From Bacteroidaceae bacterium (GTDB lineage: Bacteria > Bacteroidota > Bacteroidia > Bacteroidales > Bacteroidaceae): a stretch of 55,041 nucleotides of DNA. The stretch spans positions 1 through 55,041 of the forward strand of contig JAFYAT010000056.1 of assembly GCA_017540585.1 (NCBI GenBank), written 5' to 3'. The notes beneath the pieces are model-generated. The model was not told where the DNA came from. It did no database searches and saw only the letters and a program-made list of their open reading frames with translations. Below are positions 713 to 32,722 of this stretch, one piece after another. Numbering within the stretch: the first letter of the stretch is position 1; every line of letters begins with the position of its first letter. The position numbers were made by a program, and so were the translations under genes.

Positions 713-3700
713 CAGTTGTATTCTGTTCTTCTTTCTTCTTTCCAAACAGCCACTTCAATGACTCGAAGTCATACTGCACGCTCACACCAAGTCCCTGTGT
801 ATTGAGCGTACCCTTTGTGAAGTACCTGTCGTTAGTCATATTGTAAGCCTTGAGATATGTGTTGCCATTCTCCCAAAGACGCCATTTCAGTTCAAAGTCT
901 CCAATGAAGCTCTGAGTATTGGTCATGGCATTATCCCTGTAGCCGAAGTTGCCGTTCACGAGAAGACGGTCGTTGAAGAGTCGTCCTGAAAGAATACCTT
1001 CAACGTCCATATCCTGCCAGCCCTTCTCACCAGTAGATATGTCTGTACCTAAGTTCCAGTTGCTGTTAGTTCCTATGATGCTTGACAATACCTGATTAAT
1101 CTGACCGCTAAGCGTAGATGAAACGAACGAGTTGACAGCTTGTCCGCTCTTGTCATCGCCGTTGGCACGTGCAAAATTGTTTGGGTAGAATCTGTTGACG
1201 GCAAGGAGATATATAACTTGGGTATTCATCTCCTCATCTGAGTTGATCATACTCTTCACAAGCTGACGTGTCTCGTCGTTGACATTAGGAAGACTTATGT
1301 CGAACTTGAAATCCATCGAACTTACAGTACCTGTAATATCAAGAACGCAAACCACCTTCACTTTATTGTTCTGAGAGTATGCTGTTGTTGATGTAAGGTC
1401 CGAAATTGGCACATTATGTATCTCGTGATTACAAATAAGATGTATTCCTGCATCAAATGGATTGCCGTTGAATGATATCGTACTTCCTGGCTGCATACTC
1501 AGGTCACGATACACGAGGTCGTGCATATAGAGGCGGTACTTGCCATGATCAACATTATATGTACCGAACATCTGGAATGCACCTTTGTTGTGCCACTTTG
1601 CCTGAATGATGGCGTCTCCATATACGCTGATGTAGGCATCGTCTTGACGATCCATACGTAGCTTGACTTCGCAGTTCTGGTTGATGTTACAATGGAAATC
1701 CATGTATATGTCGCCCTCGTAGTTGCTCTTCTTCTTCTCGTTCTTGACGATGTATTGTGAAAGGTCGTCTTCGTCACGTACCTTCTTCTGCTTAACTTCC
1801 GGCATGGCGTAGTGGAACTGTTCCTCCTTGTTTGTGGCTGTTATGTCGCGGAACTCAATGAAGGAACTGTTGACAAGGGCGTCTGGCGATACATTGTCGT
1901 ATGCAAAGACGGAGCCTTTGTTTGTGTATATGTTGCCTGATATATGCATAGGATGACCGTCAGAACCATCAAGATGGACATCACCTGAGGCAAAGACAGT
2001 TGCACAGAATTTGTTGGCGTTGAACTCCTTCTCGTCATACACGAGTATGCCATGTGCATCGGCATCAAAGTTGTATGCAAAGTTGCGGAGATTGGTGTGT
2101 GTTACTTTGCCATTGAGTATGCCCACATTATGCTGGTAATCCATCATACGCATGTCCTTGAATGATATGAGCCCACGTTCCAGATGGACAGTATCTCCTG
2201 AGAACATATAAGGAACGTTGGTTGTCTTCAACTTCATGGACACCTGACCTGTTACATCACCCTCAAGGTCAACCTTGTTGAGAGGACCAACCACGTTAAG
2301 CGAGCCACGCAAGTAACCATCCATATCGTCAAAGATGATGCCGAGGAATCCTTGCAATACGGCAGCATGAGTGTCCATTGCATCTACATGGAGGAATATG
2401 TCATTGTTGGCAGGAGAGACGAATCCCTTGACTTTTGTTGTGCCGAACCTGTCTATATAGTTGGAAGTAAGGCCATCGCGACACTTGTACATGTTGACGA
2501 TATTGGCATTGAGGGCAATACCGTTGACCTCATCATCCCAGTTGCCGTTAATCTCGGCATTACCGAGAAGTCCTCCCTCGAGACAGAAGTCCTTGACATT
2601 AAGCTTTGCCTTGAAGTCAGGCTTGTCGAGCAAGTTTGTCAGAGTTGCCTCGCCTGTTGCTTTTCCTGAGAAATCGACTGCTGTGAAGTTGACTACGTTA
2701 AGTACATATTCAATCTCTACATTATTGAGTTTTGCGAGGATAGAGTCGGATGGATTATCTGACACTTTCCCCTCTATAGTCACGTATTTATCACCACTCG
2801 ACACCTTGAGGTTATGGCAGGTGATATCCTTTCCATATACGGATATTCTGGCAGGAGTGATGTTCCATGTGGTATCGTTGATGACTATATCTGACTGATA
2901 TATATTCAAATTAGTCTTTAACTTGCCTATACTGTCCGCAAAACTGACTCTCGAATTGAGATTTACGTCAATATCGTTACGATTCTTCATCTTCAACTTG
3001 ATGTTTGAATCTACCACGTTATTGACTGCTGTGGCATTAAGGTCAACCTTCATAGCTTGTTTGTCGGTATGTGTAAGACCTGTAGCTTTAAGACTTAACT
3101 GATTGGAATTGTTGCAGCATACCACATTAACGTTTTTGTATGTACTACCGTCGAATGTAGCGTATGGAACGTTGACGTCAAGGTTGAGAATATTTCTTGA
3201 AGCATCCATTGAACCAATAACTCTTACTGGCTGTGATACAGAATATTCATTCTTAATAAAGTGGTGTAGAATAGGGGAGTCGTAGAATGCGATATCATAG
3301 TTGAATTCTGACTCAGAACTACTGTGCTCCTTCTTGACTATCTCGTTGAGATTTGTGGCAATGATGTTCTTGAGGTCAGATGCCATAGTGGACAACTTGC
3401 CATGTCCCTTTATTCTTGCGTCGAGGAAGTCGCTCTGGAGCACAAGGTTGGAGTTACCTTTGCTTGTCTGTTCTATGTCAAGATTTATCTTGCTGACATT
3501 AAACGTTGTATCTGGTGTAACAAGGCAGATGTCATTCATTGTCACATGACCATTGACATTATCTATATTCGAACCGTCAATCTGGGCATCAAGGTTCATG
3601 GATAGACGCTCACCAGAATAATCCTTGATGAGGTTCATGGCGTTAGGATTGAAGTCCTTGAGCGTCATTGAAAGGTCGAGGTCATGGTTCTTGTCCTTGT

Positions 3701-13474: not shown

Positions 13475-13640
13475 TAAGTAGGTGTGCAAAATTATTTTTA
13501 TAATAATTGTATTGATTAATGATGTAGGTTCAGCGCCTAAAATAAATGAGTGTAATGACTCCTACTCGATTGTTTTTAGACGGTGAAGATGCGCAGAAGG
13601 CGGTGCAAGGATTGTAAAAATAATTATGCACACCTACTTA
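13475..13640. mobile_element. 166-bp MITE, copy 1
   Basis: Terminal inverted repeats of 26 bp with one mismatch: the left begins TAAGTAGGTGTGCAAAATTA (13475) and the right ends GCACACCTACTTA (13640). The interior contains a smaller inverted pair around CGCCTAAAA/TTTTTAGACG. It has no coding capacity. It is about 96% identical (7 differences over 166 bp) to the copy at 21338-21683, in inverted orientation, once that copy's insertion is removed. A TA target duplication is possible, but it cannot be separated from the palindromic ends. No transposase is in the window. Confidence 0.9.
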
Positions 13641-20858: not shown

Positions 20859-21251
20859 TTATGCCTCCTGTATCAATAGTTCCTCAAGAAATTCTGATGC
20901 ATCGGCAACGCAGAGTGGGCACTCACGTAGAACCTTACCTGTGCCTGCACCTTTGAGCAGTTTGCATTGTGTGGCGCCATTGCGCTCTTGGAACTTGTCC
21001 ATTATCTGACGCATACCCTTTACTGACTTAGACTTATCCTTTGTGGCAAGACCAAGTATGATGCCAGCACCGACTATTGCTCCACACGTACCTTCCATGT
21101 TGCCCATTCCTGCTGCGAAGCTGTTGCCAACGTGCTTTATCGTATCCACATCCATGCCTGTATAGTCACAGTATGCGCAGAGTACAGCTTGTGTGCAATT
21201 ATGTGTACCGCAGCGTTTCATTTCTGCTGCCAATTGTTTTCTACTTTCCAT
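20859..21251 (-). CDS. C_GCAxxG_C_C family redox protein
   Basis: 130 residues. Conserved pieces are HNCTQAVLCAYCDYTGMD at about 17-34, GMGNMEGTCGAIVGAG at about 50-65 (the G-C-A/G core of the family name), then KLLKGAGTG and ECPLCVADASEFLEELL. Members are small putative redox or metal-binding proteins of unknown reaction, often beside Fe-S or reductase genes, as here. It is the first gene of the ferredoxin/NapH-like operon, with a -7 box 20 bp upstream. Confidence 0.85.
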   Translation of the reverse strand: MESRKQLAAEMKRCGTHNCTQAVLCAYCDYTGMDVDTIKHVGNSFAAGMGNMEGTCGAIVGAGIILGLATKDKSKSVKGMRQIMDKFQERNGATQCKLLKGAGTGKVLRECPLCVADASEFLEELLIQEA

Positions 21252-21337: not shown

Positions 21338-21683
21338 TAAGTAGGTGTGCAAAATTATTTTTACAATCCTTGCACCGCCTACTGCGCATCTTCAACGCCT
21401 AAAAACAATCGAGTAGGAGTCACTACACTCATTTATTTTAGGCGCTGAACATACATCATTAATCAATACAATCATTATAAAAATAATTTCGACCTGTATG
21501 GTTGTAGTTTTGCACAAAGGTGCATATTAAAAAAACAGTCAAGAAACAGTACAAAAACAAGAAAAAACATGTTTTTTTTGATTTTCTTTTGTTTTTACCA
21601 TGTTTTTTTAACTGGCCGCACTGCGGCAAAAAACAACATACAGTTTCAACCGTACAGGTCGAATAATTTTGCACACCTACTTA
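21338..21683. mobile_element. 166-bp MITE, copy 2, split by a nested insertion
   Basis: The ends are the same as at 13475-13640 (TAAGTAGGTGTGCAAAATTA at 21338; TTTTGCACACCTACTTA ending at 21683), with the interior in the opposite orientation to copy 1. The total is 346 bp. Removing the 172-bp insert and one 8-bp target copy leaves exactly 166 bp, the length of copy 1. Confidence 0.92.
21490..21661. mobile_element. 172-bp inverted-repeat element nested inside the MITE
   Basis: Termini are CGACCTGTATGGTTGTAGTT (21490) and, reverse complemented from 21661, CGACCTGTACGGTTGAAACT. The first 16 positions differ at two. The flanking 8 bp AATAATTT is duplicated exactly (21482-21489 and 21662-21669). 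The interior is A-rich then T-rich, with a CCGCACTGCGG palindrome and no ORF. An 8-bp duplication fits several IS families (IS1595, ISL3, IS66); I cannot assign one. Confidence 0.9.
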
Positions 21684-21952: not shown

Positions 21953-23266
21953 ATGACAGAAAAAAGAGGATGGCTTGTGGCGACTTTCGCCATAGCCAAT
22001 GTGTTCTGTGTGTCTGCATCAGAGCCATTACGGATGAACCTGCAACAGCTGTTTGCCACAGCAGAGGCTAACAATGCAAGTGTACAGTCGTATAAGGCAG
22101 CGATACAACAGACAGAAGAGGGTATTGATGCAGCACATTCTGCGATGCTGCCTGACGTTGAGGCTTCGGCATCTGTTAGCTACCTTGGAAATGTGAGGAT
22201 ATGGAATCGCCGTTTCAAGGAAGGAATGACGGCTGTGACTCCACACTTTGGAAATAACATGGTATTGACAGCAAGACAGACTGTGTATAGCGGAGGAGCC
22301 ATAACAAGCAGTATAGCCTTGGCACGTCTCGAACATGAGATGACAAAGGTGGAAGCGGAGGAGAACCGTCAACGGGTACGCTTTCTGTTGACAGGTCATT
22401 ACTTGCAACTGCACAACCTGCGTAACCAGCTGGAGGTCTTTGACCAGAACATCACACTTACGGAGACTCTTATCCAGCACACAAGACAACGTATGGAGCA
22501 GGGCATAGCTCTTGAGAATGACGTGACACGTTATGAACTTCAACTGGAGAATCTTCGTCTTGGAAAGACAAGGGTGGAGGATGCGAGGCGTATCATAAGC
22601 CACCAGCTTACCACAATGCTGGGTATGGATAGCACCATAACCATTCTTCCTGATGATAACTTCTCTACGGCTTTGTGTCCTATTGACGGGGAAAGTGCAT
22701 GGCAACAGCTGGCGACAGCTAATAATACAGGATTGCAGAAGGTGGCTATAGGTACACGTATGGCGCAGCAGAAGGTACGTCTTGAAAAGTCTGAACGTCT
22801 GCCGAAGGTTGCCATTGTTGCCGAAGACCATTTGGACGGTCCTGTAACGTTTGAAATTCCTACGTTGGACAAGAACATCAACTATTGGTATGTGGGTGTG
22901 GGCGTGAGGTATAATTTCTCATCATTATGGAAGAACAACAAGAAGGTACGACAAGCTCGCACATCTGTATTACACAGTCAGTTGCAACAACGTGAAGCGG
23001 CTGAAGGTGTGGACAATGCCATTCAGGGTGCATATACCAATTACCTTACTTCGTTCACAGAGCTCAAGGCGCAGCAGAAGAGCGTGGAACTGGCAACACA
23101 GAACTATCGCATCATTCAGAACCGCTATACCGAGGGACTTGCACTTATTACAGACATGGTGGATGCCGCCAACGTGAAGCTTGATGCAGAGCTTGCACTT
23201 GTGAATGCACGAATAAACGTGATATACAACTACTACCAACTTAAATATATTAGCAATACACTATAA
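21953..23266 (+). CDS. TolC-family outer-membrane efflux protein
   Basis: 437 residues. Signal peptide about 1-23 (WLVATFAIANVFCVSASE). Two OEP repeats follow, with long amphipathic helices: DLFATAEANNASVQSYK-like positions at about 30-60, then coiled-coil-like helices at 120-215 (HLRNQLEVFDQNITLTETL equivalent) and 330-430. NRYTEGLALITDMVDAANVK near residue 387 is the typical second-repeat phrase. It forms the outer-membrane channel of a tripartite pump. It is the first gene of a tolC-hlyD-MFS operon on the plus strand; the HlyD gene starts 3 bp after its stop. Confidence 0.93.
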   Translation: MTEKRGWLVATFAIANVFCVSASEPLRMNLQQLFATAEANNASVQSYKAAIQQTEEGIDAAHSAMLPDVEASASVSYLGNVRIWNRRFKEGMTAVTPHFGNNMVLTARQTVYSGGAITSSIALARLEHEMTKVEAEENRQRVRFLLTGHYLQLHNLRNQLEVFDQNITLTETLIQHTRQRMEQGIALENDVTRYELQLENLRLGKTRVEDARRIISHQLTTMLGMDSTITILPDDNFSTALCPIDGESAWQQLATANNTGLQKVAIGTRMAQQKVRLEKSERLPKVAIVAEDHLDGPVTFEIPTLDKNINYWYVGVGVRYNFSSLWKNNKKVRQARTSVLHSQLQQREAAEGVDNAIQGAYTNYLTSFTELKAQQKSVELATQNYRIIQNRYTEGLALITDMVDAANVKLDAELALVNARINVIYNYYQLKYISNTL

Positions 23267-32495: not shown

Positions 32496-32634
32496 AATTA
32501 CTCGTTTTTCATCAATTTTTATGCCCTCATTTTTACGATAAGGTATCGGAATTGTTATGATGAATAATCGTACAAAAGGAACAAAGGTATGGTGTATAAT
32601 TTATGTTTTATGGCGAGACATCTGTTTTCATTTA

Positions 32635-32722
32635 GATATACATCTGCTGACTGTAGGATATATATCTGCCGAGCGTAGGATATATATCCTTTTGGATTCA
32701 GATATATATATGTTGACAACAA
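32635..32722. repeat. Four units with exact 22-bp period (GATATATATCTG)
   Basis: GATATA starts at 32635, 32657, 32679 and 32701. The first two units continue as CATCTGCTGACTGTAG and TATCTGCCGAGCGTAG; the last two keep only the GATATATAT part. Confidence 0.8.

Follow-up and report, generated by a model that had tools for sequence, protein, structure and literature searches.

The 346-bp unit at positions 21338-21683 of the window, a stretch of 55,041 nucleotides that is contig C122 in the genome (G000) of a Prevotella-type gut bacterium, is very probably a nested pair of MITEs, in which the inner element was inserted by an ISKra4-like transposase at a near-ideal target within the outer one, and the same event has recurred independently in other outer copies. 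The unit lies between open reading frames at 20859-21251 on the reverse strand and 21953-23266 on the forward strand. Direct sequence comparison assigned 21338..21489 (+) to positions 1-152 of the outer MITE, with its left terminal repeat, TAAGTAGGTGTGCAAAATTATTTTTA, at 21338-21363 (+) and a first copy of the 8-bp target duplication, AATAATTT, at 21482..21489 (+). The inner MITE follows at 21490..21661 (+), 172 bp long and bounded by CGACCTGTATGGTTG...CAACCGTACAGGTCG. The second copy of AATAATTT occupies 21662..21669 (+) and begins the right end of the outer MITE (positions 145-166), which extends over 21662..21683 (+). The preliminary description had given the unit as a 166-bp MITE plus a 172-bp insert plus 8 extra bases with a perfect duplication, and re-measurement found the sum exact to the base and the same 8-mer on both sides of the insert. 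It had also held that removing the insert and one 8-mer restores the intact outer MITE at 13475..13640 (-), a 166-bp copy with its target site unoccupied. The restored element has exactly that length and order, and its alignment with the reverse-complemented intact copy is free of gaps, but the letters are only 95.8% equal (159 of 166 identical, 7 mismatches). The arrangement at 21338-21683 was confirmed as real and not the product of chance, since the genome has 44 exact matches to the inner end CGACCTGTAYGGTTG and the reversed-sequence control gave 0.

Both elements have the properties of MITEs. The inner one is 172 bp long, with 15-bp ends that differ in one letter and an 8-bp duplication, and its genome search returned 183 candidates, of which the best 40 were scored, partial places included. 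The outer one is 166 bp long with inverted ends and is dispersed among differing flanks; the best 40 of its 75 candidates were scored, again including partial places, and its end AAGTAGGTGTGCA occurs 70 times in G000 against once in the control. The genome is a draft of 149 contigs (3.62 Mb, 86% complete) in which at least 19 contig ends fall inside the outer family, so that true copy numbers are probably higher; these repeats explain part of the fragmentation. The earlier proposal of two distinct non-autonomous families, of which the outer came first, is supported: 27 right ends of the outer family stand empty in G000, a similar intact outer element (L290) is present in another genome of the genus (G025), and many other copies of the inner family lie elsewhere in G000. 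Outer-type mini-elements of about 46 to 47 bp, in which two ends enclose a short piece of interior, were also seen at C46:9483-9528, C85:41636 and C118:5523-5569 of the same genome.

When both families were mapped on the fetched stretches, an insert of the inner superfamily was found at the same position of the outer element at 13 loci of G000 (C10, C25, C27, C32, C36, C42, C46, C50, C53, C71, C122, C131, and C143), with an 8-bp step at that position that is sometimes shifted by one. The inserts lie in both orientations and are of at least three types with the same kind of ends, those of C10 and C42 having a distinct interior of the CACGGAG type. These loci represent 16 interrupted outer ends, C95 being counted together with C27, and C123 together with C32, on account of their identical outside flanks, and the two ends of C25 being taken as one. 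C44 and C138, where the inner side alone is visible, were left out of the count, as was C108:22660, a degenerate outer-like end whose adjacent inner element has a different junction. Outer sequence stands on both sides, in the order expected of an insertion, at five loci. C122 carries a 172-bp insert with AATAATTT twice, C36 a 172-bp insert in the opposite orientation with the same 8-mer as C122, C27 a 160-bp insert with the duplication AAATAATT, C32 a 199-bp insert with the 9-bp duplication AAATAATTT, and C143 a 172-bp insert, again in the opposite orientation, with a 9-bp duplication containing one mismatch; the duplications are thus 8 bp in two phases, or 9 bp. The far side of the insert is unseen at C10, C42, C50, C71, and C131, and C46 and C53 each have one outer end and lack a duplication, their far side being other than outer sequence. 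C25 is flanked on both sides by outer ends, in inverted order and lacking a direct duplication; this looks more like recombination between two composites than like an insertion into a shortened outer element, a reading that was dropped. The inserts at C27:93-252 and C95:128-359, of 160 and 232 bp, share their ends, the outer site and the outside flanks, and are perhaps two haplotypes of the draft.

There were several independent insertions at this site, as indicated by differences in orientation, in insert length and type, and in duplication phase; we count at least six. The site is a hotspot for insertion of the inner element, not the scene of a one-off event, a recurrence that the preliminary description had missed. 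Among right ends of the outer family, 13 of 40 were occupied and 27 empty, compared with 0 of 30 left ends (three of these in very short elements), a difference with a Fisher p of 3e-4. With C25, C46, and C53 set aside, 10 occupied right ends against 27 empty ones still gave p=0.0015. The right-end count omits C8:100885, which the classifier had wrongly included.

A near-ideal target sequence very probably accounts for the landing of the inner element in the outer right end. A symmetric target profile learned from 66 of the 88 inner-type ends of G000, those lying outside outer copies, gave the motif R-AAAWWTTT-Y. The outer right end, in the forms AAAATTATTT and AAATTATTTT, scores 10.8-11.1 of a maximum of 13.3, which puts it among the best 0.02% of positions in the window; within the intact outer copy the right-end site ranks both first and second. 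In 24 of 30 outer left ends a T replaces the A beside the site and the score is lower. The left end at C122 has a good motif, tied in score with the right end, yet it is empty. Among insertion-sequence-type ends in other genomes, 17 of 21 lie above the 99th percentile for the motif.

Comparison with another genome confirms the 8-bp duplication made by inner-type elements: a probable orthologous empty site lies at 32569..32666 (-) of the window. There, AACAGATG is present once, while the corresponding locus of another genome (L218 in G020) has a 300-bp inner-type element between two copies of AACAAATG, and the joined flanks of that locus match the window at 90% identity over 100 bases.

These observations are best explained by a sequence of events in which the outer 166-bp MITE, bordered by TA, first entered between the two open reading frames. 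Later, an ISKra4-like (Mutator-like) transposase acting in trans would have inserted the 172-bp MITE and duplicated 8 bp, the target being AAAATTATTT in the outer right terminal repeat, close to the ideal R-AAAWWTTT-Y. The same reaction has occurred independently several times in other outer copies, the insert facing either way and in some cases being a different element with these ends. Alternatively, one composite could have arisen once and been copied whole by the outer transposase, making the recurrence a single event. The loci C122, C71, and C131 have the same insert side and phase at the outer end within different outside flanks, a likeness by which some of them may be copies of one composite with a shared founder. 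As a full explanation, however, a single origin is refuted by the 13 loci themselves, which differ in orientation, in insert length or type and in duplication phase, and we regard it as very improbable. Assembly breaks at repeats, as the contig ends within the outer family attest, and a chimaera of two high-copy repeats might be suspected for that reason. It is hardly credible, given that C122 and C32 continue across both junctions into differing flanking DNA, that C36 also crosses both junctions, that the direct duplications are perfect at C122, C36, C27, and C32, and that the same 8-bp pattern surrounds the inner-type element of another genome.

With independent insertion as the preferred reading, there is the further question of how far the target motif explains the frequency with which the outer end is used. 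Thirteen positions of the window reach the outer-site score, 8 of them outside outer copies in 5 clusters, from which about 330 motif-equal sites genome-wide were extrapolated on the basis of this one 55-kb window. Among the other insertion loci, 10 of 54 reach that score when nine columns are used, a more permissive cut that admits 19 positions of the window. Right ends used at a rate of 13 in 40 would then exceed motif-equal sites elsewhere (10 loci over the extrapolated 330 sites) by a crude factor of the order of ten, a figure to be read with the single-window extrapolation and the unequal thresholds (ten columns for sites, nine for loci) in mind. The excess could be taken to mean that the inner machinery recognises the outer end beyond the short motif, which would make the outer terminal repeat a dedicated landing pad. 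The short motif already predicts the site, however, and insertions into a gene-less element escape selective removal, which could alone yield the excess; such relaxed selection may be its explanation. We therefore consider recognition of this kind unlikely, and are just as doubtful that the repeat serves Mutator-like MITEs, beyond the 10-bp motif, as a safe harbour across the genome. If the landing-pad reading were true, one transposon would be using another as a harmless target.

The preliminary description had called for a full insertion sequence with the termini of the inner element, and such elements are present in two other genomes and absent from G000. In other genomes carrying the inner ends, interiors vary widely, while the ends and the adjacent AT-rich 8-mers are retained in Prevotella-type genomes, the pattern that one transposase mobilising many MITEs would be expected to leave. 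At least 112 stretches with inner ends were found in other genomes, and many of these, from unrelated bacteria and archaea, look like chance matches. At some loci the inner end is followed by the start of a gene, and the genomes concerned yielded two full elements with ends identical to the inner ones. The first, at 562-2166 of L278 (1605 bp), is from the genome of L121, uncultured Prevotella RUG765; the second, at 944-2532 of L277 (1589 bp), is from the genome of L185, Hallella multisaccharivorax DSM 17128. In each, the first frame ends in QAKKGA and the second has 423 codons. The copy in L278 is cut off by the end of its contig; the copy in L277 lacks a matching duplication, and a letter is changed in one of its ends. 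The inner MITE has the ends alone in common with the insertion sequence. The second frame of these elements is closest to ISKra4 transposases. As read in L254 (bases 1896-3077, 394 residues), it matched the NCBIfam families ISKra4 (1.4e-27), ISLre2 (4e-15), and ISH6 (4e-11), none of them at its cut-off; ISKra4 was the best of five matches, with 96.9 bits against a cut-off of 205, short of family membership. The Pfam match of this frame to UPF0236 (3.7e-4) likewise stayed below its cut-off, at 19.8 against 24.3, and the partial frame of another transposase, in L260, gave no transposase match in Pfam. The ends of L254 agree over 18 bp. In the full elements the two transposase frames overlap at a run of AAAAAGGGGG, as read in L254. 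The traits of the ISKra4 group, namely 8-9-bp duplications, a terminal C and inverted repeats of 18-39 bp, are all found here, the duplications coming from the MITEs and none being seen on a full insertion sequence. Taken together, the shared ends and the transposase matches suggest that the inner MITE was moved by an ISKra4-like transposase.

This transposase had no match in the G000 draft (86% complete, 149 contigs) and was found in 1 of 45 genomes of the genus, at 42-49% identity. The start of the transposase element, searched as DNA, was recovered in 5 of the 6 genomes that had yielded loci with an end plus a gene, and plasmids gave no match; its absence from 349 family genomes came from a search with no positive control and is uninformative. 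Several other candidates for the source were rejected. IS1595 failed because PF12762 had no match in either G000 or G020. The 1698 bp between an inner end and a two-mismatch end in L101 contain ordinary genes, L207 is archaeal with ordinary frames, and L217 and L213 have lone ends beside ordinary frames. A 480-aa frame in L111 was set aside, as it sits between other inverted ends (AATTAAAGAATCCC and GGGATTCTTTAATT, L111:1486-3240) that interrupt an inner-type fragment; we take this segment to resemble another insertion sequence.

The ISKra4/ISMich2 group comprises prokaryotic Mutator-like elements (p-MULT 4) with 8-9-bp duplications, according to the part of PMC3942029 that treats it, and the ISLre2 and ISH6 families belong to the Mutator-like group as well. 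A terminal C, duplications of this length and, as in ISMich2, a transposase in two frames are shared with the present elements, and the AT-rich duplicated target resembles the AANATNTT given there for the related ISH6. The differences are that the transposase here falls below the NCBIfam cut-off, that the motif R-AAAWWTTT-Y was learned here, and that in both diverged copies, L277 and L278, the two frames are offset by +1 (or -2), whereas the same part of that source places the second frame of ISMich2 at -1. Nested MITEs in bacteria are already published. In Porphyromonas gingivalis, also a member of the Bacteroidota, BrickBuilt_18 contains MITE239_11 and another strain has a gap there; the relevant section of PMC4596501 describes a single case, without mention of repeated use of the site. 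QMITE2 of Coxiella burnetii, likewise a MITE targeted by another mobile element, is invaded by IS1111, an insertion sequence and not a MITE, in the section of PMC10969869 concerned with it. The present case is thus ordinary in kind with an unusually clear record, and adds the repeated use of one site, an explanation of it by a motif, and a probable source. It provides a natural, many-times repeated experiment in target choice for little-studied bacterial Mutator-like transposons, and identifies a probable transposase for gene-less repeats in Prevotella-type genomes.

The outer family, with TAAGTARGTGTKCA ends, extends to other genera, two of which are rich in it. Its end was found with at most one mismatch in 13 of 399 sampled family genomes, G000 included, and lone matches among these may be due to chance; G020 has a single outer end. 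With two mismatches allowed, 121 ends were counted in G152 and none in the control, and viral contigs gave no outer end. Where ends are paired in the fetched stretches, a distance of about 160 to 245 bp mostly separates them, and the interiors differ. The borders are TA nearly throughout. At C72 (L014), the flanks of one copy have a paralogous counterpart some 1 kb off that is empty and carries a single TA, the two agreeing but for one base in a run of T. The outer family may be a TA-targeting element, and from these borders our guess is IS630/Tc1-mariner. Inspection by eye of the first frames beside unpaired ends revealed no transposase of an autonomous outer element. Solitary outer ends, some 20 bp long, lie beside ordinary frames, no partner being recognisable nearby, in G000 at C17:20785, C72:52570, C86:20035, C95:8296, and C108:12490, and in L274 near 1501-1530. 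The 382-bp element of L330 was rejected as a nested insert, having a different interior. A close relative of the window's outer element, at L304:1623-1865 (G279), carries a different insert of about 77 bp at another position. Beside the ends of both superfamilies stand interior modules that resemble one another and contain CCCTGAAAGGGCAAAAGC-like repeats, in L117 and L142 of the inner type and L330 and L307 of the outer type.
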